Assembly (NCBI GenBank): GCA_020832365.1
Contig: JAFIEX010000009.1
Span: 1 to 32,635 of the forward strand
Length of the DNA: 32,635 nucleotides
Reading direction: 5' to 3'
Origin: Crocinitomicaceae bacterium
GTDB taxonomy: Bacteria; Bacteroidota; Bacteroidia; Flavobacteriales_D; Crocinitomicaceae
Below the pieces are notes generated by a model. It ran no database searches and was not told the origin of the DNA. It worked only from the letters and a program-made list of their open reading frames with translations. The translations under genes and the position numbers were made by a program. Below, piece by piece: positions 2,860 to 20,155 of the stretch (positions are counted from its first letter, which is position 1; every line of letters starts with the position of its first letter).

Positions 2860-4917
2860 CTAAAACGCTATAAATTTCTCGCCCAAATAATGTTTCAAGT
2901 TCCATTTCTTGGTTGTGTCCAGGGCACGCTCTAGGACAATCAATTTTTGGGAGGTGTTGTTTTTGAAATACTCAACAGTTTCATTGGCGATGGTAACATC
3001 CAAGCAAAGTAGGGTTTCCTTTTCGCCATCTGAAGCCAATACGATTTCGTTCTTTTTGAATTGCTCTTGTTTGGTGATTGTGTAATTCAATTTGAAGCCG
3101 TTTTTCAAGAGAATTTCGGTTGTGAGCTCGTTGCGGTTGAAGGCTGAAACTAATTGGGCTTCTTTGACTTCAATGTATTTCTTCAGTAATTCAATGTTTT
3201 CTTCTTCAGAAAGCTCTGGATCGGGTGCAAATTCTGTTCTTGGGAAGTTGGATTTTTGCAGCTTGAACACTTTAAATCCTAAGCCGTTTAATTGCTCTTG
3301 CTCATCTTCTTTTCCAGAGAATAAATCAGGTTGTGCTTTTTTCTTTTCCTCAATGATGTTGTTGATAACGCGTTTGTTGCGCTCAATAGTGATATCACTG
3401 ATTTTCTTGTAGCCCGCTTTGAAAGCTTCGCTCTTTTCTTCTGTTGCTTCTGGGAATTGAACAAGAATAAAATTTCTTTTTTTATTATCAGATTCATTCA
3501 ATTCAACTATTGCATGTCCAGTAGTTCCAGAGCCAGCAAAAAAGTCCATAAATAAGTCATGGTCATTACAAGTAATCGAATCAAAAAGTATTTTTAGTAT
3601 CGAGGTTGGTTTTGGATATGAGAAAAAGCTCTTTCCATCAAAAATCTTTTCTAATTGAATACCACCATCACTCTTTGTAGATAATATTGATCGCAATAGG
3701 AAGCTTTCTACTTCATCGAAATAAGTTATTGAGCTAGGTTGAGTAGCTTCATCTTTACTAAACCAAATTCTACCACAGATAAAACTGCCATCATGGAGTT
3801 CTTTGATTTCTTCATATTTACCTTCTTTAATCCCTGCAGCATCTTCAAATGTGTCAATCTTCCAACGCCATCCTCTGTCTGGAACTTTTACGGGTTTGTT
3901 GGTTTTGGGATGTAAGACATCATAAGTTGGTCCGAATGTATCTGCATTTGGCCAACTCATATTTATTTTCCCCCATAAACGATAATCATCATTTAATGAA
4001 TTATATAAGGTAATTCCCCTGTCAAAATCTTTTTTCTTGTATAGTTTCTTTAATTCCAAAACAGCTTGTGGTAGAGGGATTTTTTTAGATTTCAACTTAT
4101 TAATCAGTTTATCAATGTCCTCTAAACCTTCTTTGCGCATTAAAAACTCATGCTTCAATGAACTATCCTTAACATAAACCAAAATGTATTCATGTATATT
4201 TCCAATTCCTTTATCATTCTTCGGAACCCGTTTATTCCATGTGATGCACTCTATGAAATTTGATTCTCCAAATACCTCATCACACAATTTTCTTAAATGA
4301 TGTATTTCATTATTATCTAGAGAGATAAAGATAACTCCATCCTGCCTTAGAAGTTGTCTTGCGATCAGAAGTCTCGAATACATCATATTTAACCAGTTAC
4401 TATGATAGCTTCCAGAGTTTTCAATATTTGTGTCAATTTGAACTCCGTTTTCGATCATTTCAGCATCTTCCCAATAAGATTTAACATCTTGGCGCCATGT
4501 ATCTTTGTAGACATAATCTTTGTCTTTGTTGTAAGGCGGATCGATGTAAATACATTTGATTTGTTCGCGGTAACTTTTACTCAATAATTTAAGTACCTGT
4601 AAGTTTTCACCTTCTATGATGAGGTTTTCGCTGTGTTCCGGGGTTACACTTCTTTCTTCGTCAAAAACCAATGTTGCATCTGTTGGCGTAAAGGCTTCAC
4701 GCTTGGCTTTACTTTTTCCAAACCAACGGAATTCGTAACGCTCTGTTTCATTCAAACTTTCCGGATCAACAATTTGCTTGAGGTCATTGATGTTCAATTT
4801 TCCATCATTGGTGAACAAGTCGGGCATCAACTGTTTTAGTTGCTCCAGTCGTTCCTGGTTCCAATCGTGTGACTGAACGTTTTTGAGTGGGTTATCTGTG
4901 TTACTCTCCATTTCCAA
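2860..4917 (-). CDS. mod: type III restriction-modification methyltransferase subunit (Mod)
   Basis: This 685-residue protein is an N6-adenine DNA methyltransferase of the beta class. The catalytic motif DPPYN is at residues 126-130 and the S-adenosylmethionine-binding motif FAGSG follows at 460-464; that permuted order defines the class. The region between them should hold the target-recognition domain. The C-terminal VFKLQKSNFP region is typical of Mod proteins. Mod reads the asymmetric recognition sequence, methylates one strand, and is needed by Res for cleavage. The start overlaps the end of the KilA-N gene by 17 bp, so the genes are cotranscribed. Length and motifs look intact. The recognition sequence cannot be read from the protein. 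Confidence 0.96.
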   Translation of the reverse strand: MEMESNTDNPLKNVQSHDWNQERLEQLKQLMPDLFTNDGKLNINDLKQIVDPESLNETERYEFRWFGKSKAKREAFTPTDATLVFDEERSVTPEHSENLIIEGENLQVLKLLSKSYREQIKCIYIDPPYNKDKDYVYKDTWRQDVKSYWEDAEMIENGVQIDTNIENSGSYHSNWLNMMYSRLLIARQLLRQDGVIFISLDNNEIHHLRKLCDEVFGESNFIECITWNKRVPKNDKGIGNIHEYILVYVKDSSLKHEFLMRKEGLEDIDKLINKLKSKKIPLPQAVLELKKLYKKKDFDRGITLYNSLNDDYRLWGKINMSWPNADTFGPTYDVLHPKTNKPVKVPDRGWRWKIDTFEDAAGIKEGKYEEIKELHDGSFICGRIWFSKDEATQPSSITYFDEVESFLLRSILSTKSDGGIQLEKIFDGKSFFSYPKPTSILKILFDSITCNDHDLFMDFFAGSGTTGHAIVELNESDNKKRNFILVQFPEATEEKSEAFKAGYKKISDITIERNKRVINNIIEEKKKAQPDLFSGKEDEQEQLNGLGFKVFKLQKSNFPRTEFAPDPELSEEENIELLKKYIEVKEAQLVSAFNRNELTTEILLKNGFKLNYTITKQEQFKKNEIVLASDGEKETLLCLDVTIANETVEYFKNNTSQKLIVLERALDTTKKWNLKHYLGEKFIAF

Positions 4918-5840: not shown

Positions 5841-8570
5841 TTAGTTATCAGTTAATTCCTCCATCTGTTTTGTAATGTACTTTGCAGCTTCCTCTTTGAA
5901 ATAGTTAAACTCCTTCACTGGTGCTTTGTATTCTACATCGATGCCCAGGGCAGCAAAATGCTTCATTGCACATTTAATTTTGTACACCTCACTTTCTTTC
6001 AATGCTTTTTTATCGTTGATATCGTTTGTTCCTTTTGTTTCTACCACAAAATAAAATTCGCTTTCCGTACCATTTTTCAATTGTTTACGGCGCATCACGA
6101 TACCAAAATCGGGTTCGTATTCTCCAATTGGTGTTGGGATTTTGTAGTACGAAGGCAGCTTTAGGAAACAAACGACTTCATCGTCGGAGTCAGTCGCTTT
6201 GGCAAAGGTTTTCTCCACATCACTATCCACGAGCATTTTATCGAATACACCTCGATTTGGTGTTTCTACAAAGCCTTTTTCATCGATATTTCTCACGTAA
6301 TCATCAAAACTGAATGGAAAGGCTTCATTTGAGACTTCATATTGTAACCCTCGAATCATTTCATCCAGTTCGATGTTCTTTATTTCTAACGAAGCAAGGT
6401 GGATAAACTGAGGTGGATTTTTAATGATGTGCGCAAAAGACTTCATTCCTGTAATGATCTTGAACACGGTAATGTACGAAACACCTGTGCTTTCACTGAT
6501 TTCTTCAATGATGTCTAGACTTGAAAAACGTGCCTTTAGTTTGTACGATTCAGAACCTCCAAATTCATCTTGGATTTCATCTTCTGAAATGCCAGTTATT
6601 GAACGGCTTTGAACCTCGGCCTTGTAATCTGAAAGCGCAATATTGTCTAATGCTTCGATGGATTTTGCAATTAAGGCATCTTCATCAAAAGCAACTGAGA
6701 AGCTTGTCTTTTTCGCCAATGCTTTCCAGAAACGTTTGAACGCTTGGTTTACAGTTTCATTTGGATTGCGCTTGAATTTAATTTCATTTTGGGGTTTCCC
6801 TTTGTGCGTATGCGCCATTCCTGCACCCGCAGCAGATGTTCCGTAAACCTCTTTGATTTCTTCCTGATATTGGGTAACGAATGTTTCATACGTTTCGTTG
6901 GGAATGACCGTAAGCTGATTGATTCTATCCGCATCTGCCACTTCGGGGTTGTCATAAACACGTTGACCATCTTTATTGACGCAGATTCTCAAGCCACGAC
7001 CAATTTCTTGACGCTTTTTGATTTCAGAATAAGAATTGCTCAATGTAGCAATGTTAAAGATATTTGGATTGTCCCAACCAACTCCCAGAGCAGAGTGCGA
7101 AAAGATGAATTCGATTTTATTGGCTACAGAATCTCCATAGGATAACAATTCTTCTTTGTCTTTTAGAATGGCGTCAAAGATGTCTGAATTCTTCCGCATA
7201 GCGGTTTCGTTATCCGTAAATTCACCTTTTCCTGTTTTCGCAAAATAAAATCCTTGTATGGATTCGATATGCTCAGCAGAAGGCTGTTCGTTGTTGTGGA
7301 ATTCCGCATACACGCTTTTGTATTTTTCAATAAACAAGTTCTTAATCACTGGATCTTCTCCCATGAAGTTGGCAACTTTATCAATGAAAATAAGCGAAAG
7401 GCATTTGATTCCCAATTCTTGAAGTCGCTGCTTCTTAGTAAAATGACGAATAATCAACCATTCTAATTGCAAAGCCCAAATACTTTCTACATTAGTTGAT
7501 GATTGTTTCTCAAAAATTTCAGTACCATTTGTAAAAGTCAATGACCACTTACCTGTCCGCAAACTTTTATTGATTCGTTCAATCGTATAGTTTAGGTAAC
7601 TAGGATTATTAGTTTTATCTCCAATATTATCTCCAATGCTTAACCATTTTGTCTCTTTGAACTCGATCTTTCCAGCGGCACTTTGATGCCAGGCTTTTAT
7701 TTTTGCTTTAGGGTCTCCTTTTCCTATTTGGGTATTTGAGTATTCTAATTTTAGAGTTGCTTCATCGTTCTTTTCTGTGACTGTAAGCACCTCTATTTTC
7801 TTTACCAATCCTTCACGGTAACTGTCATAAGGAGTTAAGCGATAAATTCTATTTTTCACTTCTTTGTGGGTAGCTGAATAACGAATTTTGAAAAGCGGAT
7901 TTAGTTTGGCAATTTGCTTCACTGAATTGTCTGTATCCATTCCCTCTTGAGGTTCATCCATGAAGATGATTGGATTGGTTCTACCAATGGTATCAATGAA
8001 TGGAATATTGGCAAAAAGGTCTTCTCGTTTTGATTGGTTTAAAATTTTGTCCTCTGAATTGAAAGAAGCCAATGTCATCACCATAATCTGCGGATGTTGC
8101 TCTTCAATAAATGACGTTACATTGTTCAGTTTTTTACTTGTATATTCAAAGTATTTTGGTTTAAATCCGTAGATATCTTCCAATTGATTTTCAAACATTT
8201 TTAAGGTATTTAAGACCCCTTGACGAATAGCAACAGACGGAACAAGAATGATGAATTTTGTGAACGCGTAAGCCTTGTACAACTCACAAATGGTTTTTAT
8301 GTAGACCAATGTTTTTCCTGTGCCGGTTTCCATTTCAATAGTCAATTCGCGCTCTGGGCTTAATTTCCCGATTGATACGTCGATACCATTTTCAACAATG
8401 ATCTGCTGAATATTTTGAGCTAATTGCTCAGGTGACAACGAAAGCATGTTCGAACGAATTCCTTCTTCGCAAGCATTATCGAAATTGTTTTTCTCATTGC
8501 CGTCAAAAACTTTGACAATGGAATCAATTGCAATTTGCTGATATTGTAGATTCTCGAGTTTAATTTGCAT
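5841..8570 (-). CDS. res: type III restriction endonuclease subunit (Res)
   Basis: The 909-residue protein is an SF2 helicase-like translocase fused to a nuclease. Walker A ETGTGKT is at residues 81-87, DEPQ (Walker B variant) at 205-208, and motif VI QEIGRGLR at 521-528. The C-terminal PD-(D/E)XK nuclease has Asp821 in EPDFG and Glu844-x-Lys846 in VVETKG. Res acts with Mod: after two unmethylated sites are recognised, ATP hydrolysis drives long-range communication and DNA is cut near one site. All key residues are present and the length is usual for Res. It lies 58 bp after the WYL regulator gene and precedes the palindrome and KilA-N gene, all on the same strand. Confidence 0.96.
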   Translation of the reverse strand: MQIKLENLQYQQIAIDSIVKVFDGNEKNNFDNACEEGIRSNMLSLSPEQLAQNIQQIIVENGIDVSIGKLSPERELTIEMETGTGKTLVYIKTICELYKAYAFTKFIILVPSVAIRQGVLNTLKMFENQLEDIYGFKPKYFEYTSKKLNNVTSFIEEQHPQIMVMTLASFNSEDKILNQSKREDLFANIPFIDTIGRTNPIIFMDEPQEGMDTDNSVKQIAKLNPLFKIRYSATHKEVKNRIYRLTPYDSYREGLVKKIEVLTVTEKNDEATLKLEYSNTQIGKGDPKAKIKAWHQSAAGKIEFKETKWLSIGDNIGDKTNNPSYLNYTIERINKSLRTGKWSLTFTNGTEIFEKQSSTNVESIWALQLEWLIIRHFTKKQRLQELGIKCLSLIFIDKVANFMGEDPVIKNLFIEKYKSVYAEFHNNEQPSAEHIESIQGFYFAKTGKGEFTDNETAMRKNSDIFDAILKDKEELLSYGDSVANKIEFIFSHSALGVGWDNPNIFNIATLSNSYSEIKKRQEIGRGLRICVNKDGQRVYDNPEVADADRINQLTVIPNETYETFVTQYQEEIKEVYGTSAAGAGMAHTHKGKPQNEIKFKRNPNETVNQAFKRFWKALAKKTSFSVAFDEDALIAKSIEALDNIALSDYKAEVQSRSITGISEDEIQDEFGGSESYKLKARFSSLDIIEEISESTGVSYITVFKIITGMKSFAHIIKNPPQFIHLASLEIKNIELDEMIRGLQYEVSNEAFPFSFDDYVRNIDEKGFVETPNRGVFDKMLVDSDVEKTFAKATDSDDEVVCFLKLPSYYKIPTPIGEYEPDFGIVMRRKQLKNGTESEFYFVVETKGTNDINDKKALKESEVYKIKCAMKHFAALGIDVEYKAPVKEFNYFKEEAAKYITKQMEELTDN

Positions 8571-8628: not shown

Positions 8629-9531
8629 TTAGTACAATTTTTCTGTTTCTTCCAGCTCTACAATTTCCTGTAATGGTTCGGGGAGGGAAATTATTTTGAT
8701 GTCTTCGTTTAGGCCTTTGATGAAACGGAATACAGGACGCAGGTCGTTGACGTGGCATTGGAAGATGAAGTTTTTGGATTTTGTTTTTTTTGTAATGAAC
8801 TCTTCTGTTTTTGGGTATTCTTCTGAAAGTAGAATTTTGGCTTTCAGAGAGAGTACGAGGTGAACTGGGAAGGTTCTTTGGTCTGAACGAGGGCCAAAAC
8901 CGAAAACGTCTTTTTCTGTAACAAGGTGTTTGTCTTGGTGTTTGAATTCTGTTTTCGTGATTTCAACGTTTTGCATGCGTTCGATAACAAATGTTTTGTT
9001 AATGCCAGAAGCTATTTCGAAAGCCGTAATTGTGCGATAATTTGCATCTATTGCGATAGGTTCTACAATTCTGTCAGAAATGGATTGAGAGCTTATGGAA
9101 TTGTATTTTTTAATGATGATTTGTTTTTCGAGGTTGATGGCTTCTTGAATGTCTTCAATCATTTTACTGATGTGTGCGTTGCCGATGGTAATTGAAGCAA
9201 TTTGAACATCTGAACGTACAGCCATTTTTTTTAATATGGATTGATTCAAAGGATTGGAGCGGTCTGATGTCTGGAGGAGCTTTGAAACATGGTTGAACTC
9301 TTGTTTTGTTAGTTGGCTTATTTCCATTATTTCATTGGTTCTAATTGTATAGCGCCCAGTGTTATCTCTTTCGATTCTAAAGCCAATTTCTTCTAATAGT
9401 TCAAAATAGCGATATACGGTTCTTGTGCCGGATCCAATGATTTCGCTTAATTCTTCCATTGATTTTGGTAGGTGGGTTTGTAAGGCTACGATTAACTGTA
9501 GAACACGTAAAATTTTATTTTGATGTGCCAT
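8629..9531 (-). CDS. WYL-domain transcriptional regulator
   Basis: A 300-residue protein with an N-terminal helix-turn-helix (residues 1-60; LPKSMEELSEIIGSGTRTVYRYFELLEEIG) followed by RIERDNTGRYTIR, as in DeoR-like regulators. A WYL-type domain spans about 135-210 (KKYNSISSQSISDRIVEPIA, then TITAFEI), and a WCX-like C-terminal part includes FGPRSDQRTF. WYL regulators bind nucleic acid or nucleotide ligands and often repress phage-defence operons (BrxR/CapW type). The gene lies directly upstream of res on the same strand, so it probably controls the whole restriction-modification operon and may also be cotranscribed with it. No consensus promoter was found with confidence in front of it. Confidence 0.88.
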   Translation of the reverse strand: MAHQNKILRVLQLIVALQTHLPKSMEELSEIIGSGTRTVYRYFELLEEIGFRIERDNTGRYTIRTNEIMEISQLTKQEFNHVSKLLQTSDRSNPLNQSILKKMAVRSDVQIASITIGNAHISKMIEDIQEAINLEKQIIIKKYNSISSQSISDRIVEPIAIDANYRTITAFEIASGINKTFVIERMQNVEITKTEFKHQDKHLVTEKDVFGFGPRSDQRTFPVHLVLSLKAKILLSEEYPKTEEFITKKTKSKNFIFQCHVNDLRPVFRFIKGLNEDIKIISLPEPLQEIVELEETEKLY

Positions 9532-11332: not shown

Positions 11333-12880
11333 TTAGTTTTTATATGTTGTGTTGCAGTATGGATGTGTGATCTGCCCATTTTCAGCATTTCCCATACCTC
11401 CATCTTCTTTTCTATTGATATGGTCTATGGTCATTGCGTTTTTATGTATGTAACCGTTACATATTGCACACCTTAAACCGTTTTTAATAGCTTCTTTAAT
11501 AAATACTTCTGACTTGGAGTCTGTGGTGAAGTTGCTAAATATATTTTTTTCGTCCAAAGTTGATGAAAGTGTTAAATGGTTAAATTTTGGTAACTTTATT
11601 ACTTCTTCAATGACGTGATTTAAATTGACATTTTCTTTTAATTTATTCATCATTTCAAAATACAATTCAACTACGTGCGGTATAGCTGCGTATGCGCCTC
11701 TATATTTCCTAGTCATTTGTTGAATTAGGTAGTCGTAAGTCAACAAAAATTCTTCAAATTTTTCTCTAACCTCTATAAAATCATTGTATTTATTCTTTTT
11801 GTCTAATTCTTTGATAAATGCTAAAGTGAAGTAAAACGATGCTGGTTTATGTTTTCCTTCATTTGAATAAAAATATACAATTGGGTGAAGACCTAATGAA
11901 GAAGGATGAACACTATTGATACGCCAAGCCAATTTTCTCGCATTTTTTAAATACCTTATAGTTTCTAACCCATCTAAATCATCATTTAATGTTTCAGAAA
12001 AATTTGAACCAATATTATTTGTTGTATTCACAAATTCTAAAATCAAGGGCAAACTTTGTGCAGAAACTAATTTCCCTCCAATTGGGATGTCTAATGTTTT
12101 AACTGGTGTTTTTAAAGTTGGATTGTAAATTATCTCGTGTATTTCTTTAGATAATTTTTGAATATCGGACTGAATTTCTGCAGAAAAATCAGACCAATAT
12201 TTATGTCCTTGACCACCACGAATTATAGCTCTAGCTGCAATGCAATTACCTTTTTTTCTTGATTCAAGTATTTTTAGTTCTGTTGGGTCTATTTTTGATG
12301 GCTGTTGGTTGATCTTAAAAAATGATTTTTCCGCTTTTTTAGCGTCCCCATCAACCCATTGAACTTGAATTGAGTATGCCCCTAAATTTTTAGCTTTCTG
12401 TATTAAAGCTTCATTAGATTTATCATTGTTAGGTGCTTCTATAATATCAAGATAACGACCTATTTTTTTATTGATAAGTTTTCGTGTCTTTTCTGCTATT
12501 TCTCTATGTTCATCATTGATGCTATCCCCATAAAATTTCTTTGAAATCTCACCATCTCCGTAGTCGTCTTTGATCCAACTAATCAGAGCACTTAATCTAT
12601 GAGCTCCGTCAATTACAAAGTAAAGTCCTGAATTATTACGCCATAAAATTATTGCAGGTATTAGTTCGCCATTTATATAGCTTTCTATAAATTCCACTAT
12701 TTTTTTAGCGTCCCATTCGTTTGTTTCTCTTTGAAAATCGGGTTTTCTTAGAAATGGATAGAAAAACCCTCCCGTAAAATTTGAAATAGAAATTGAATTA
12801 AAGAGATTCATTGAGTTTTGGTTTCCAATAACTTCAAAGTCTTCTCTTGGGATAATTGCGTCTAAATTTACTTTTGCCAT
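11333..12880 (-). CDS. DUF262 (ParB/Srx-like) and HNH endonuclease domain protein
   Basis: A 515-residue protein. The N-terminal DUF262 domain has RKPDFQRETNEWDAKK (about 45-60) and VIDGAHRLSAL (89-99), a variant of the DGQQR motif that binds and hydrolyses nucleotides in GmrS-type proteins. At the C-terminus is an HNH nuclease: CAIC at 471-474, Asp486-His487 in TIDHINRKEDGG, an Asn near 498-501, His506 and Cys509, so a CxxC...C zinc site is likely. DUF262-HNH proteins include type IV restriction enzymes (GmrSD) that cut modified phage DNA. The gene lies between GTTAGGC and GCCTAAC core-like sites and so looks like a single-gene cassette. A defence role is inferred from the domains. Confidence 0.85.
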   Translation of the reverse strand: MAKVNLDAIIPREDFEVIGNQNSMNLFNSISISNFTGGFFYPFLRKPDFQRETNEWDAKKIVEFIESYINGELIPAIILWRNNSGLYFVIDGAHRLSALISWIKDDYGDGEISKKFYGDSINDEHREIAEKTRKLINKKIGRYLDIIEAPNNDKSNEALIQKAKNLGAYSIQVQWVDGDAKKAEKSFFKINQQPSKIDPTELKILESRKKGNCIAARAIIRGGQGHKYWSDFSAEIQSDIQKLSKEIHEIIYNPTLKTPVKTLDIPIGGKLVSAQSLPLILEFVNTTNNIGSNFSETLNDDLDGLETIRYLKNARKLAWRINSVHPSSLGLHPIVYFYSNEGKHKPASFYFTLAFIKELDKKNKYNDFIEVREKFEEFLLTYDYLIQQMTRKYRGAYAAIPHVVELYFEMMNKLKENVNLNHVIEEVIKLPKFNHLTLSSTLDEKNIFSNFTTDSKSEVFIKEAIKNGLRCAICNGYIHKNAMTIDHINRKEDGGMGNAENGQITHPYCNTTYKN

Positions 12881-13055: not shown

Positions 13056-14012
13056 TTAGAGGGAAAGGAGCATTTCGATGAGTTCGGGTTGGGGGGAGAC
13101 GTCGGTTTTGGTGGTTTGGACGTTGGTATGTGACCAGATGCCTGGTGTGTTTATGCACATTTGCGGACTTGTGATGTGAAATGCTTTTGCGCCTTTTTTA
13201 CGGATGAGGTTGGGCAAACCTTGACGGATGTCGATGTTGTGTTCATTGGCTAGGTGTTTTAAGAGCTGTTTTAGGGATTGGAGCTGCTGGGTGCTGTAAC
13301 GATGATAGTAGGAATAGTCTCGGAATGGATGTTTTAGGGGTTCTACTTGGTCTCGGTGGACTTCTTGGCCAAGGTAGGTGTAGTATTTGTTTTTGTCTAG
13401 TTCGATGGTTTGTAAGCGACCATTGACTCTGCGTTCGAAATAGCCTTTTGTTATTCTTCCAAAACTGGTGAGTTCTATTCCAATGCTTTCTCGGTGCATG
13501 CGTTGGTTGCCTATTCCAAGGTGCCACGCCCAACCGTTGTTTGGTATGGCTTGAAGGATTTTGCCGTCATTTGGGTTGTCGCTGGTGTTGTGAATGGATT
13601 GTCCTCCAATGACAAATTCTGTGGCTACTTTGCGTTCGGCTTCTCTTCCCCATGCATCGATTACGCGATAGGGGTTTTCCCAACCGGCTGTGTGGTGTAA
13701 GAAGATCCAGGACTTCTTGGTGGGCTTTATGAAATAGGCATCGTTTGGTAAGAAATATTCTTTGATTTCAAGGGATGGTTTGGGATGTACTGGTTTTGGT
13801 GGAACTGCTTCTGACTGAAATGGATAATGACGAATGATTGTGCACCATGTTTGTGGGCCTACTATTCCATCTACTGCGATGTGGAACTTTGCTTGGAGCT
13901 GCATTACTGCTGCTCGGGTTATTGGACCGAATATTCCGTCTCGGTTGAGGTCTAAGAGTGTTTGTAAGATTTGAACACTGGTGCCTCGGGAGTTTGTTTG
14001 AAGTGTTTGCAT
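13056..14012 (-). CDS. N-acetylmuramoyl-L-alanine amidase with peptidoglycan-binding domain
   Basis: From the likely start at 14012 (MQTLQTNSRGT) the protein has 318 residues. A PG_binding_1 domain comes first (GTSVQILQTLL, then DRDGIFGP-like RDGIFGPITRAAV and GIVGPQTW). An Amidase_2 domain follows: SWIFLHHTAGWENPY carries a zinc-ligand His, then WAWHLGIGNQRMHRESIGIEL. It cleaves the bond between muramic acid and the stem peptide. There is no signal peptide, as in phage endolysins. The open frame reaches back to 14108, but that part is translated palindromic repeat, so the later start is preferred. It is the last gene of the HTH-rep-ATPase block and ends at a terminator. Lysin and wall-remodelling roles are both possible. 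Confidence 0.87.
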   Translation of the reverse strand: MQTLQTNSRGTSVQILQTLLDLNRDGIFGPITRAAVMQLQAKFHIAVDGIVGPQTWCTIIRHYPFQSEAVPPKPVHPKPSLEIKEYFLPNDAYFIKPTKKSWIFLHHTAGWENPYRVIDAWGREAERKVATEFVIGGQSIHNTSDNPNDGKILQAIPNNGWAWHLGIGNQRMHRESIGIELTSFGRITKGYFERRVNGRLQTIELDKNKYYTYLGQEVHRDQVEPLKHPFRDYSYYHRYSTQQLQSLKQLLKHLANEHNIDIRQGLPNLIRKKGAKAFHITSPQMCINTPGIWSHTNVQTTKTDVSPQPELIEMLLSL

Positions 14013-14030
14013 TTTTTTTGTTTTTAGGAG

Positions 14031-14175
14031 ACGCCATGAATGGCGTACTTTACTGTGTGAGACGCCATGGATGGCGTGCTGTGCGATGTGTGATGCCATG
14101 GATGGCATGCTGTGTGATGTGAGAGATACGCCATGAATGGCGTATCTGCGAGGATACGCGCCTATCGGCGCTTAT
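14031..14175. repeat. cluster of five palindromes between amidase and ATPase genes
   Basis: Four copies of the palindrome ACGCCATGRATGGCGT lie at 14031-14046, 14062-14077, 14093-14108 (as ATGCCATGGATGGCAT) and 14128-14143, about 31-35 bp apart. The second and third sit in near-identical 31-bp tandem units containing GCTGTG and GATGTG. A different near-palindrome, GATACGCGCCTATCGGCGC, follows at 14154-14178 over the ATPase stop. Each would form a short RNA hairpin. They resemble REP-type palindromes. Confidence 0.8.
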
Positions 14176-15665: not shown

Positions 15666-15953
15666 CTATCCGTTTTGTTTGTTATCTTCGATTATGTCTA
15701 AAATCTCTTTCTTGTTATAAAAAATCACACCTCCTACCTTTGAGAAAGGTAATGTGCCATTAACCCTCATGTTTTGTAAAGTTCCAGCTGATATTCCAAG
15801 CATCCGCTGAACTTGATGTGATTTTAGAAGTTCTACTTCTGGTGTTTTACTAGCTTGATTTTCGATTAACACTTCCTGTAGTTCAGTTAATTTTTCTAAC
15901 AGGGTTGATTTTAGTTCTTGCAGATCTTGCTGCGTAACAATTGAAATTTCCAT
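15666..15953 (-). CDS. excisionase-type helix-turn-helix protein
   Basis: A 95-residue protein with an N-terminal coiled coil (LQELKSTLLEKLTELQEVLI) and a C-terminal HTH_17/MerR-like domain: LLKSHQVQRMLGISAGTLQN followed by MRVNGTLPFSKVGGVIFYNK. This is the standard small DNA-binding protein of Bacteroidota mobile elements, acting as excisionase, regulator or origin-binding factor. It is the first gene of the HTH-initiator-ATPase-amidase block. The array of GGGCTTGCA repeats lies directly upstream and is its most plausible binding region. Confidence 0.82.
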   Translation of the reverse strand: MEISIVTQQDLQELKSTLLEKLTELQEVLIENQASKTPEVELLKSHQVQRMLGISAGTLQNMRVNGTLPFSKVGGVIFYNKKEILDIIEDNKQNG

Positions 15954-16317: not shown

Positions 16318-16518
16318 CTTTAAAGCCCTTGATTTTACTAGTGTTTCATAATGATTTGATTTTCTTCATTAAATTTGTTTGATTTTCAATTGAATTGGTT
16401 ATAAATTTGATGATCAATCAGAGCAAAATGTTGCTTGATTTGTTAAACATAAATACGTTGATTATAGGATAATAATTAAAATAAACATATTATAAATAGT
16501 GTCGCGAAAGCTATTTTG

Positions 16519-16627
16519 GAACCAAAAACCGTCAAATTTTAGCACTCCAAAAAATAGTCTTATCGCCCTGCTAAGGCGTGGGCTTAAGATTGTTTGGAGT
16601 GCGGGTTCTTGACGGTACCTAGGGTTC
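16519..16627. other. strong multi-step hairpin; candidate structured RNA or DNA origin element
   Basis: Five nested helices can be drawn: GAACC (16519-16523) with GGTTC (16623-16627); CCGTCAA (16529-16535) with TTGACGG (16609-16615); GCACTCCAAA (16542-16551) with TTTGGAGTGC (16593-16602); TCTTA (16558-16562) with TAAGA (16585-16589); GCCC (16565-16568) with GGGC (16580-16583). A second GGTTC at 16604-16608 could compete for the outer GAACC. CCACGC at 16640-16645 could pair with GCGTGG in the apical loop as a pseudoknot. It is too large for a terminator and matches no RNA family I know. Confidence 0.5.
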
Positions 16628-16667
16628 AACAAGATTGGTCCACGCTCATTTTTTACAGGTATTTGTT

Positions 16668-16865
16668 ATGTTAAAAGTTGAATTAAGTAAGTATCCGATT
16701 GAAATTTCAGAAATTGATAAACTTGTAATTTTTATGGTTTATCATGAAATAGAAGATATTAAAGGACTTCTGTCTATAAAACCAGAATTGTTAAAAGAAT
16801 ATGGTGGCTGGACAGAGGCACTAAACGCTTCTGTTGAAACTATTCGTAAGTATAATCAATTATGA
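16668..16865 (+). CDS. small hypothetical protein (65 aa)
   Basis: From ATG 16668 the frame codes 65 residues starting MLKVELSKYPIEISEIDKLV and ending ETIRKYNQL, with a globular-looking mix of residues. The frame can be extended upstream to a TTG at 16635, but that would reach into the folded element, so the ATG is preferred. I do not recognise a family. It lies 40 bp after the hairpin at 16519-16627 in the same orientation, and its 3' end overlaps the convergent 503-aa gene by 10 bp. The hairpin may act as its leader. Confidence 0.45.
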   Translation: MLKVELSKYPIEISEIDKLVIFMVYHEIEDIKGLLSIKPELLKEYGGWTEALNASVETIRKYNQL

Positions 16866-18367
16866 GTTGGTATTTTATTAATGATTTGGAACGCTAAATC
16901 TCGGATTTTATTAGCGCTTGATGGATGCATATTGTATAAGTTATTTCTAATATGCTTGACAGAAAAATCTTTGCTTTGTTCGTTAACAAAAGAAGCTTGA
17001 ATCCATTGAGCTAGACTGCTCATAGACTCTGGTTCAATTACACCTAAATCATATACTACTCTGTAGAATGTTGAGAGCTCTTTGCTGTTAAAACGTGTTT
17101 TTAACTTTTGCTGTTTTAAAGATTCATCTTGTGTTGTTTTTCCTTCGTCTTTCCTTGGATAGATATTCCAGAAGTCTAATTCAATATCTATCCATGCAAT
17201 TACTTTTTTTACTAGTTGGCTATCTTTTTCATCTATCTTTAAAAGAACCTGACTGAACTCTTTCTTTTTCTGTAATAAGTATAAGTGTTTTTCTTCATGG
17301 TCATCGAAATCGTGAATAGCATTTATTATGTCGTTCACTAGATAGTCGAAAAAACTTTGGTTTTGAAAGTTAATCGTGACTAAAAATTGTATAATTTGTT
17401 GTTCATCAATTGGCATTAGTTTAGCCCTGGATAGATACATGAATAAATTTCGAAGCAAATTATTGTAATATCCAAACTCTTTATACGAAATTCGTTCAGA
17501 GTTGTGAAGGTTTAATACCTTTTCAAGCTCCTCCTCCATTAAAAAATAAAAGATTTCATCTACTTCAATTTCTTTAAGCGCCTTTAGTATTTTCTTTGCT
17601 TTGTTAACAAAGTCATTTTCATTTAATGATTTGGAAAAATATGGTATTTTCTGTGAATCATCAATAAATTCAGAAAAAGTAGAAACAATAAAATCCATCA
17701 AATTAACAATAGACCTATAGATAAGGACAGCATGATCCTTGGCCGTGTATCTTGTTTTGATTTTGATTTTAAGGTCGTTGTGTTTTAAACCGTATTTTTC
17801 AATTAATTCATTTAGATAGCTTGTAAGAATACGTTGCAATTTAGCTACTAGCGTATTGAATTCTATTTCGTTCATTCTAATTGAGCAATCCCTAAGCGTT
17901 TTAGTATGCTCAGTATATATTTGATTTAAAACCATGTTCAGGTATCCGTACTTCAAACGATTTTCTTCTAAATCAGTCCAATTAATCTCCTTGGAAATTG
18001 AAATTGTGTAAACTCCATCTGTTTTCGTTATATTGTATTGACTTTTACTGATATCTTCCGAGGAAATCTTTAATTTACTTATGACTTGCTCATTTAAAAT
18101 TTCTTCCATTGGATAGGGGAAAGAAAAGTTAGATGTTTCAAGAACTTCCCTGAATAATGGGTGAGCGGATGATACTTTTAGCGATTCAATTATTTCAAAA
18201 TCCTTTTCTGTCTTTAATTTTTTGAACCTAACCAATGTTACCTCCCTACAGTCAACTTTATCGTTTTTTAAAGTTTTCGCTATAGAATTGGCGTCCATCT
18301 TTTCAGGAGCCAGATCACCATTGATTGGATCATGATATGAGATAATTCTATCGAAAATTTCATGCAT
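16856..18367 (-). CDS. hypothetical protein, weak RteC-like C-terminus
   Basis: A 503-residue, largely helical, charged protein with no signal peptide or membrane segment. The last 85 residues (RFNSKELSTFYRVVYDLGVI, FSVKHIRNNLYNMHPSSANK) and the preceding WIDIELDFWNIYPR recall the C-terminal part of RteC-type regulators, which control excision of Bacteroides conjugative transposons. The match is from memory and modest. The gene is next to the integrase and on the same strand (175-bp gap with a terminator on the integrase side), which fits an element-encoded regulator. The first 400 residues remain unassigned. Confidence 0.55.
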   Translation of the reverse strand: MHEIFDRIISYHDPINGDLAPEKMDANSIAKTLKNDKVDCREVTLVRFKKLKTEKDFEIIESLKVSSAHPLFREVLETSNFSFPYPMEEILNEQVISKLKISSEDISKSQYNITKTDGVYTISISKEINWTDLEENRLKYGYLNMVLNQIYTEHTKTLRDCSIRMNEIEFNTLVAKLQRILTSYLNELIEKYGLKHNDLKIKIKTRYTAKDHAVLIYRSIVNLMDFIVSTFSEFIDDSQKIPYFSKSLNENDFVNKAKKILKALKEIEVDEIFYFLMEEELEKVLNLHNSERISYKEFGYYNNLLRNLFMYLSRAKLMPIDEQQIIQFLVTINFQNQSFFDYLVNDIINAIHDFDDHEEKHLYLLQKKKEFSQVLLKIDEKDSQLVKKVIAWIDIELDFWNIYPRKDEGKTTQDESLKQQKLKTRFNSKELSTFYRVVYDLGVIEPESMSSLAQWIQASFVNEQSKDFSVKHIRNNLYNMHPSSANKIRDLAFQIINKIPTHN

Positions 18368-18541: not shown

Positions 18542-19804
18542 TTAACTAATCTTTTTGTTCTGAGTTGTGCTACCTAAACCAAAAAGCTTTGCTTTAAGGT
18601 TCTGCATATCCTCCGAAACTTTCTTCTCCACCACCTTCGCATATATTTGGGTGGTGCGAATTGAATTATGGCCCAACATGGAGCTGACCGTTTCAATGGG
18701 CACACCATTGGCTAAAGTAACGGTGGTCGCAAACGTATGACGAGCAATGTGCGAGGTGATTTTTTTATTGATATTGCAAATGGCCGCAATCTCTTTGAGG
18801 TAAGAATTGTAGCGTTGATTAGAGTTCACCGGAAGCAACTTGTTTGCTTCAATGCAATACTCATGATCGCGATACCTTTCGATAATTTGCAAAGCAACCG
18901 GAAGTAATGGAACGCTCTCACGAGTTCCTGTTTTTTGGCGGTTAGTTGAGAGCCAATATTCACCATCAATTCCTTTGGTGATGGCATCGTATTCAAACTT
19001 ATAAATATCGGAATAGGCGAAACCTGTGTAACAACAGAAAACGAAAACATCCCGCACTTCGGACAAGCGGGGGTTGTCAATTTTCTTGAAACGTAATACA
19101 TCCAGTTCTTCTTGTGTGAGTATTTCACGCTCTGGTGAAGTGTATGAACACCTGAAGTTATTGAATGGGTTTGATGGAATCCAGTCCAATCCAACGGACA
19201 TGTTCATGACCTTCTTTAGGTTCTTGATGTATTTGTGTGCGGTGTTGGATTGAAGTTTGTCTTGTGTGAGTAGGTAGTGTTCGAACTCTGTAACAAAGCG
19301 TAAGCGCATTTCGGGGAGGGGCATGTCGTCCACTTTGTATTGGAATTGCATGAAGGCTTGGACTTTGTTTTTGGTAATCTTGTATCGGGTGTGGGTTTTC
19401 TTTACCACCTTTCCGATTTTGACTTGCTCTTCAAGTTTGGTGTTATGGTAGTCGAAGGCTTCGAGGATGGTTTTGTGGGAGGGGGAGGGATTTTTTAATC
19501 CTAGGTACAAATTTTTTATGTAACTGCTAGTTAGCTTTTTCCCTTTTGCTGACTCCTCAATTAATAGCTGATTAATCTCGTTCTGAATACGGTCTATATA
19601 CGTATTGATAAGATGAGAATGTTTGTTACCTGGTTTAACTTTTCTCTGCTTTTCATTCCAATCCTTCAAAGGAATGAAATGAGTTGTTGCAAACTCCGCT
19701 CTTTTCTGATCTACAATAATCCGCACGTAAAGTTGTACTTTATTCTCTTTTACCTTTTTCTTGTTTGCGTAAAAGTGAACGTTGAATTTCTGAATTGTAC
19801 TCAT
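18542..19804 (-). CDS. tyrosine recombinase / integrase
   Basis: A 420-residue integrase with the three-domain layout usual in Bacteroidota. An N-terminal arm-binding part (FNVHFYANKKKVKENKVQLY) comes first, then a SAM-like core-binding region at about 105-210, then the catalytic domain. Catalytic residues are His352 and Arg355 in HIARH, His379 in MLGHNS, and nucleophile Tyr388 in QIYAKV. In the box I motif the usual Arg is replaced (YTGFAYSD), a variation I recall from other recombinases of this phylum such as IntDOT relatives. It lies beside the 3' end of tRNA-Lys, with inverted and direct TAGGACAC repeats between, so it most likely catalyses integration of this element at that tRNA. Confidence 0.93.
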   Translation of the reverse strand: MSTIQKFNVHFYANKKKVKENKVQLYVRIIVDQKRAEFATTHFIPLKDWNEKQRKVKPGNKHSHLINTYIDRIQNEINQLLIEESAKGKKLTSSYIKNLYLGLKNPSPSHKTILEAFDYHNTKLEEQVKIGKVVKKTHTRYKITKNKVQAFMQFQYKVDDMPLPEMRLRFVTEFEHYLLTQDKLQSNTAHKYIKNLKKVMNMSVGLDWIPSNPFNNFRCSYTSPEREILTQEELDVLRFKKIDNPRLSEVRDVFVFCCYTGFAYSDIYKFEYDAITKGIDGEYWLSTNRQKTGTRESVPLLPVALQIIERYRDHEYCIEANKLLPVNSNQRYNSYLKEIAAICNINKKITSHIARHTFATTVTLANGVPIETVSSMLGHNSIRTTQIYAKVVEKKVSEDMQNLKAKLFGLGSTTQNKKIS

Positions 19805-20080: not shown

Positions 20081-20082
20081 CG

Positions 20083-20155
20083 TGATCCCGCTGGGGCTCG
20101 AACCCAGGACCACCTCATTAAAAGTGAGGTGCTCTACCAACTGAGCTACGGAATC
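20083..20155 (-). tRNA. tRNA-Lys (anticodon TTT)
   Basis: The 73 nt fold as a complete tRNA without encoded CCA. The acceptor stem GATTCCG pairs with CGGGATC (one G-U); the D-arm is AGCTCAGTTGGTAGAGC; the anticodon stem is CCTCA/TGAGG with loop CTTTTAA, so the anticodon is TTT. The T-arm is CTGGGTTCGAGCCCCAG, and the discriminator base is A. The integrase gene lies on its 3' side, making it the probable attachment gene. A 16-bp copy of its 5' end occurs upstream at 20237-20252, so its normal promoter now lies about 130 bp away. Confidence 0.97.

Follow-up and report, generated by a model that had tools for sequence, protein, structure and literature searches.

The window, a 32,635-nucleotide stretch of a contig from a Crocinitomicaceae bacterium, carries a pseudoknotted RNA element of about 150 to 155 nt that belongs to a family found across the Bacteroidota. 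One segment of the RNA, GGCGUGGGC, has two alternative partners: its 5' neighbor, which gives a hairpin, P6, and the 3' terminus, which gives an 8-bp pseudoknot; both pairings are maintained by two-sided changes. Nearly every copy of the RNA is followed by a co-oriented gene. We think it probable that the RNA is a cis-acting leader, belonging to a new Bacteroidota-wide family, that switches the downstream gene by a choice between P6 and a pseudoknot acting as a terminator.

A structured RNA in an integrative element

Sequence conservation spans position 16499 to the end of a T-tract at 16654. Two covariance models built for the family, R1 and R2, match the window copy with 127.8 and 108.2 bits, respectively (R2 E value, 3.5e-20; all covariance-model E values given here are approximate because calibration was shortened). 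The stretch from 16500 to 16670 folds as RNA to -60.5 kcal/mol compared to -39.6 +/- 4.2 kcal/mol in 200 dinucleotide shuffles, none of which reached the native energy (z = -5.0). The original prediction, made from the letters of the window, had seen a large nested hairpin at 16519 to 16645 that was unlikely to arise by chance. The hairpin is indeed there, and the shuffles and the existence of homologs bear out that judgment; only the extent needed revision, as the element is somewhat longer than proposed (16499 to 16654). The predicted outer helix is present (GAACC at 16519 to 16523 with GGTTC at 16623 to 16627), as are its alternative GGTTC at 16604 to 16608, helices P3 and P4, and the short pairings TCTTA with TAAGA and GCCC with GGGC, the last of which (16565 to 16568 with 16580 to 16583) is P6 of the window copy. 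A loop pseudoknot, proposed as GCGTGG with CCACGC at 16640 to 16645, forms as well and extends to 8 pairs (16575 to 16582 with 16639 to 16646). The parts of the element are as follows.

16499-16654, + strand: structured RNA element (covariance-model match at 16499-16651 plus the T-tract)
16502-16513, + strand: conserved 5' box or small hairpin, family consensus NAGCGUNAGCUN
16518-16523, + strand: 5' strand of P2, six pairs of which covary beyond a simulated-phylogeny null
16529-16535, + strand: 5' strand of P3, CCGTCAA (UCGCCAA in the family)
16542-16551, + strand: 5' strand of P4, GCACTCCAAA, supported by per-sequence complementarity against crossed controls
16565-16571, + strand: 5' strand of P6, the alternative to the pseudoknot
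16575-16583, + strand: strand common to hairpin P6 and the pseudoknot, GGCGTGGGC
16593-16602, + strand: 3' strand of P4, TTTGGAGTGC, with the same support as its 5' strand
16604-16619, + strand: Pa motif, GGT[TCTTGACGGT]ACC, enclosing the 3' strand of P3
16609-16615, + strand: 3' strand of P3, TTGACGG, enclosed by Pa
16623-16627, + strand: 3' strand of P2, supported by covariation and two-sided changes
16639-16646, + strand: 3' strand of the pseudoknot, TCCACGCT (8 bp, 99.1% paired)
16649-16654, + strand: T-tract immediately 3' of the pseudoknot strand

The window RNA sits between an xis-like gene and a small open reading frame (ORF) of an integrative element, which also encodes a DnaC-like ATPase, an amidase, a GmrSD/HNH protein, and a type III restriction system.

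2860-4917 and 5841-8570: Mod and Res of a type III restriction-modification system, apparent cargo
8629-9531: WYL-type regulator, apparent cargo with the type III system
11333-12880: GmrSD_N/HNH protein
13056-14108: amidase with peptidoglycan-binding domains (endolysin-like), adjoining DnaC-like and Rep-like genes
15666-15953, - strand: HTH_17/excisionase-like gene, divergent (Pfam HTH_17, 2.5e-9; PHROG excisionase matches)
16668-16865, + strand: 65-codon ORF behind the candidate leader, with relatives in the corresponding position of other elements
16856-18367, - strand: gene for a 503-amino-acid protein, convergent with the small ORF, which accompanies the RNA in window-type elements
18542-19804, - strand: tyrosine integrase (Phage_integrase, 5e-15), adjoining tRNA-Lys
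20082-20155: tRNA-Lys, beside the integrase

Relatives of the 65-codon ORF are diverged and still recognizable (alignment A8); in nine window-type relatives, an ORF of 54 to 67 codons starts 170 to 184 nt after the start of the RNA. The 65-codon ORF had no match in Pfam, PHROG, NCBIfam, or PADLOC, and neither did the 503-amino-acid protein. Moreover, a structural model of the latter (pLDDT 82) had no fold match in the PDB (best E value, 0.13), and thus the protein gives no clue to the RNA. Relatives of the protein occur without the RNA at three loci (L006, L015, and L016). We note that the amidase is odd cargo for an integrative element and may hint at a phage-satellite-like way of life. A search for the element ends found no repeat of more than 14 bases of the tRNA-Lys region in the window.

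Distribution of the family

The RNA occurs well beyond the window and its element. A blastn search over 199 related genomes returned three relatives, two of which share the window gene order of HTH/xis gene, RNA, small ORF, and convergent gene of about 500 codons, and searching with the protein of about 500 amino acids recovered further copies of the element, most with the RNA at the same place. Of 399 genomes of the order, 49 had full-length matches to model R1, which was built from ten copies, with E values down to 1e-34. In a sample of 395 genomes drawn from the whole phylum, model R2 detected the RNA in 69, with up to six copies in one genome; these are minimum figures, since few candidates were scored per genome. 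Moreover, a pattern scan of named genomes gave 79 genome loci, 35 of which matched R1, and all 35 are from organisms named as Bacteroidota except one "uncultured bacterium." Carriers include Prevotellaceae, Bacteroidaceae, Paraprevotella clara, Alistipes, Rikenellaceae, Paludibacter, Chryseobacterium, and Zunongwangia. The other pattern-matched loci, mostly from other phyla, had no R1 match, and the 22 of them that were searched again with R2 had none either.

One plasmid each of Chryseobacterium shandongense and Rhizosphaericola mali carries a copy, followed on the same strand by genes for a type IX secretion system (T9SS)-sorted protein and a hypothetical protein; blastn of plasmids with the window's own copy gave no match. 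Among viral contigs, a loose pattern found loci of which none fit the model, a tighter pattern found one true member in two contigs (L215 and L220), and a Flavobacterium-type pattern found none, nor did blastn against phages.

Paired changes and the strand of the RNA

Compensatory change was measured in A7, an alignment of 67 diverse family sequences. Pairing in the nested helices P2, P3, and P6 reaches 88.9%. Two-sided changes in these helices number 237 compared to 67 in shuffles, and their covariation is 0.432 compared to 0.199 when shuffled and at most 0.116 when the 3' partner is slid; indeed, sliding by any offset abolishes the signal. Individually, P3 is 92% paired with two-sided changes in seven of its eight pairs, and P6 is 91% paired with two-sided changes in six of nine. 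The small 5' hairpin is paired in 82 to 91% of sequences (A7 columns 7 to 10 with 17 to 20). For P4, per-sequence complementarity lies above the 95th percentile of crossed controls in 94% of copies. The covariation of P2, P3, and Pa also lies above a simulated-phylogeny null, at very low E values, but the null is crude and some neighboring positions that do not pair reach E values near 0.02 as well, and thus individual pairs near that value should not be overread.

No other helix in the family is as well conserved as the pseudoknot, GGCGUGGG with UCCACGCU, or has such strong paired-change support: the pseudoknot is 99.1% paired in the 67 sequences and has two-sided changes in six of eight pairs. 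Pa is 94% paired, with 18 two-sided changes at one pair. Taken together, the pseudoknot and Pa are 97.0% paired, with a covariation of 0.347 compared to 0.183 when shuffled and at most 0.126 when slid. As both helices were absent from the structures of R1 and R2, the search did not select for either. The homologs with compensatory changes that the original prediction had proposed to look for thus exist throughout the phylum.

The noncanonical pairs indicate the strand. Cells with G-U outnumber those with A-C by 107 to 0 in the pseudoknot, 126 to 5 in P6, and 65 to 12 in P2. P3 is the exception, with 0 G-U and 15 A-C, and thus the strand signature is uneven between helices. The pseudoknot counts place the RNA on the + strand. 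With compensatory changes beyond shuffled and slid controls and strand-specific tolerance of G-U, the feature is a structured RNA family.

Two further pairings were seen in the alignments. A closing helix of 5' GTAGCG with 3' CGCTAC appears in several window-type copies and was rejected; it overlaps the better-held pseudoknot strand. In A7 columns 20 to 33 and 67 to 84, UUAUUCUUG can pair with CAAGAAUAA, the latter also being part of P5. This helix exceeds the 95th percentile of crossed controls in 27% of copies compared to 94% for P4; it is suggestive and weaker than P4, and a second switch within the same RNA is possible.

Two competing pairings

Because they draw on the same nine bases, P6 and the pseudoknot cannot coexist. 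Two mutually exclusive pairings that are both conserved, each with two-sided changes, are what is expected of a riboswitch, and their mean computed stabilities are nearly equal (-13.4 kcal/mol for P6 and -15.4 kcal/mol for the pseudoknot). The pseudoknot strand leads directly into a U-tract: at least 5 of the next 8 bases are T in 88% of copies. The 8-bp pseudoknot would be an unusual terminator stem in that its arms are 56 nt apart, and a standard terminator scan makes no call on it.

Many copies have an additional helix, P7, between the bases just 5' of the pseudoknot strand and bases beyond the U-tract. P7 scores 16 or more in 45% of copies compared to 13 to 16% in controls, and by eye its downstream half forms the loop of another hairpin in several copies. 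In window-type copies, P7 is not recognizable.

Genes and promoters around the RNA

The original prediction had suggested that the hairpin might regulate the small ORF at 16668, and its position there fits a pattern that holds across the phylum. When ORFs of 100 codons or more are considered, the closest one downstream shares the strand of the RNA at 107 loci and is on the opposite strand at 11, and 10 of those 11 are of the window type and have a short co-oriented ORF of their own. Upstream neighbors show little strand bias (67 versus 48). A consistent place ahead of a co-oriented gene is expected of a leader RNA. From the RNA to the start codon, the median distance is 52 nt, within a range from less than 50 to 715 nt. 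The upper part of that range is occupied by TonB-receptor loci, in which the gene starts 220 to 715 nt after the RNA, a gap that is long for a simple attenuator. Many loci of this type (L347 to L368) have a small divergent HTH-like gene 5' of the RNA.

Most of the downstream proteins look secreted. By a simple and rough rule, 71 of 107 downstream proteins begin like secretion signals compared to 66 of 355 (19%) other ORFs of the same loci. Pfam matches among the downstream genes include LamG with a Por secretion tail, BspA leucine-rich repeats, the TonB plug, and an outer membrane protein barrel, and further downstream genes match LuxR-type response regulators and a redoxin. Secreted LamG proteins with a near-constant N terminus (MKK..FTAFAVGLCLSANVMAQVPSYVPTNGLVGWWPFNGNANDESGNGNNGTVNGATL) occur as paralogs, several per genome, each with its own copy of the RNA (loci including L169 to L172, L176, L178, L180 to L183, L191, and L194).

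Promoter-like boxes are enriched upstream of the RNA. The motif TAnnTTTG, the -7 box of Flavobacterium promoters (PMC9723704), occurs 101 times in 125 upstream stretches of 90 nt compared to 7.4 expected. The window copy lacks the box, and the aligned stretch reads TATAGGATAATAA. Bacteroidales copies (for example, L269, L291, and L227) have, instead of TAnnTTTG, a conserved GCCTATG box 35 to 40 nt upstream and a GACATATA stretch directly 5' of the RNA, an arrangement that may be another promoter type.

A proposed leader switch and its alternatives

A cis-acting switch is the simplest account in which every part of the RNA has a role. The RNA would be transcribed in the same direction as the downstream gene, with P2, P3, and P4 nested around the switch segment. 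P6 would fold first, and the emerging 3' strand could then displace it to form the pseudoknot just ahead of the U-tract, at which point transcription would stop or pause. The pseudoknot and U-tract would most likely constitute a terminator-like OFF state, and an RNA in which P6 is held would be in the ON state, with the gene expressed. Switching might act on termination or on translation, in response to a ligand, a protein, temperature, or contact with another RNA. The target in the window would be the 65-codon ORF of the integrative element, and targets elsewhere would mostly be secreted, outer membrane, or regulatory proteins. A more specific version, in which the RNA is a new riboswitch-like class that senses a ligand or other signal, the pseudoknot is the terminator stem, and a module shared across the Bacteroidota for the control of surface and secreted proteins is also used by integrative elements for their own small ORF, is conceivable but somewhat doubtful; the gene context suggests no ligand.

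The RNA might instead be free-standing, made from its own promoter, ending at the pseudoknot and U-tract, and acting in trans on mRNAs or a protein, with the neighboring gene as a frequent companion or target. Such a small RNA (sRNA) would account for the promoter-like boxes, the U-tract in 88% of copies, the long gaps in TonB-receptor loci, and the several copies per genome, and it would have precedents in the trans-acting FopS, which controls SusC-like genes in Bacteroides (PMC11697453), and in the structured sRNA Rfp18 of Flavobacterium (PMC9723704). However, almost every copy is co-oriented with the next gene, and many copies continue past the U-tract with P7, a helix that is sensible only in a read-through transcript. 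We regard a trans-acting RNA as the main rival of the leader switch, though an unlikely one. P7 also ties the pseudoknot region to sequence nearer the start codon in many copies, and the element ends a median of 52 nt from that codon. Together with the compact multi-pseudoknot architecture, both features would suit a leader that sets surface-protein expression through translation or mRNA stability, its pseudoknot binding a protein or the ribosome or blocking exonucleases. Shine-Dalgarno pairing is barely used by Bacteroidota. A leader of this kind would leave the U-tract right after the pseudoknot strand unexplained, and the distance to the gene varies from less than 50 to more than 700 nt; we consider it quite improbable.

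The original prediction had also entertained a nick or transfer hairpin or an origin element. A DNA hairpin serving as nick site, transfer origin, replication origin, or recombination site of a mobile element would agree with window-type copies, which lie between xis-like or replication genes and the integrase side of their elements. The family as a whole speaks against this idea: most copies precede ordinary surface-protein genes with no recognizable adjoining integrase, and most homologs have no integrase or replication gene as a neighbor. Moreover, no relaxase was recognized next to the RNA or elsewhere among the scanned window genes, the companion gene of about 500 codons occurs three times without the RNA, promoter boxes lie upstream and a U-tract downstream, and G-U tolerance is specific to one strand. 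A role as DNA is therefore highly improbable. Chance folding of AT-rich DNA, which only the general ease of forming hairpins would favor, has a negligible probability given the z score of -5, the phylum-wide homologs, and the covariation.

Members of the Bacteroidota are dominant in the human gut and in many soils and waters, and they are known to switch their surface proteins, yet to our knowledge few of their leader RNAs have been described. If the RNA is a leader switch, then a shared and as yet unnamed layer of control, a phylum-wide multicopy RNA with two competing, coevolving folds, would govern TonB receptors, BspA-type and LamG proteins, lipoproteins, and response regulators, and a mobile element would use the same module. 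The two helices, which can be broken and restored, would offer direct handles on surface regulation in the phylum.

Relation to known RNAs

The RNA family is apparently uncatalogued. No Rfam 15 family scored above its gathering cutoff over the element in the window, a relaxed search of the window (E values up to 10) gave only chance-level matches outside the element, and 18 named homologous loci had no Rfam match over theirs. The candidate new structured RNA of the original prediction is thus upheld by its paired changes, its G-U-tolerant strand, and the want of an Rfam counterpart. A search of mainly open-access literature found no published description of the family.

Riboswitches and attenuators as a general class share with it the 5' leader position, the co-oriented gene, the conserved core, and two alternative pairings of one strand with a U-tract after one of them. 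Unlike that class, the family has no Rfam match and no identified ligand or leader peptide, a long-range pseudoknot takes the place of one of the two local hairpins, and its downstream genes mainly encode surface proteins rather than one metabolic pathway. Bacteroidales-1 (RF01693), Flavo-1 (RF01705), and 6S-Flavo (RF01685) are computationally found Bacteroidota RNAs (Weinberg 2010, PMC2864571) that are likewise conserved and structured, but their Rfam models match neither the window nor the 18 named loci. FopS/GibS of Bacteroides are also a multicopy RNA family linked to outer membrane (SusC-like) genes. FopS RNAs, however, are abundant trans-acting sRNAs of about 65 to 70 nt with a single-stranded seed and a terminator hairpin (PMC11697453), whereas the new RNA is about 155 nt, nested, and pseudoknotted and probably acts in cis. 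Finally, Flavobacterium psychrophilum has Rfp18, which affects secreted proteases, and 64 structured 5' transcripts (PMC9723704). These are structured Flavobacterium RNAs too and were compared by description; identity with single members of the family is possible, and some members may already stand in published transcript lists.
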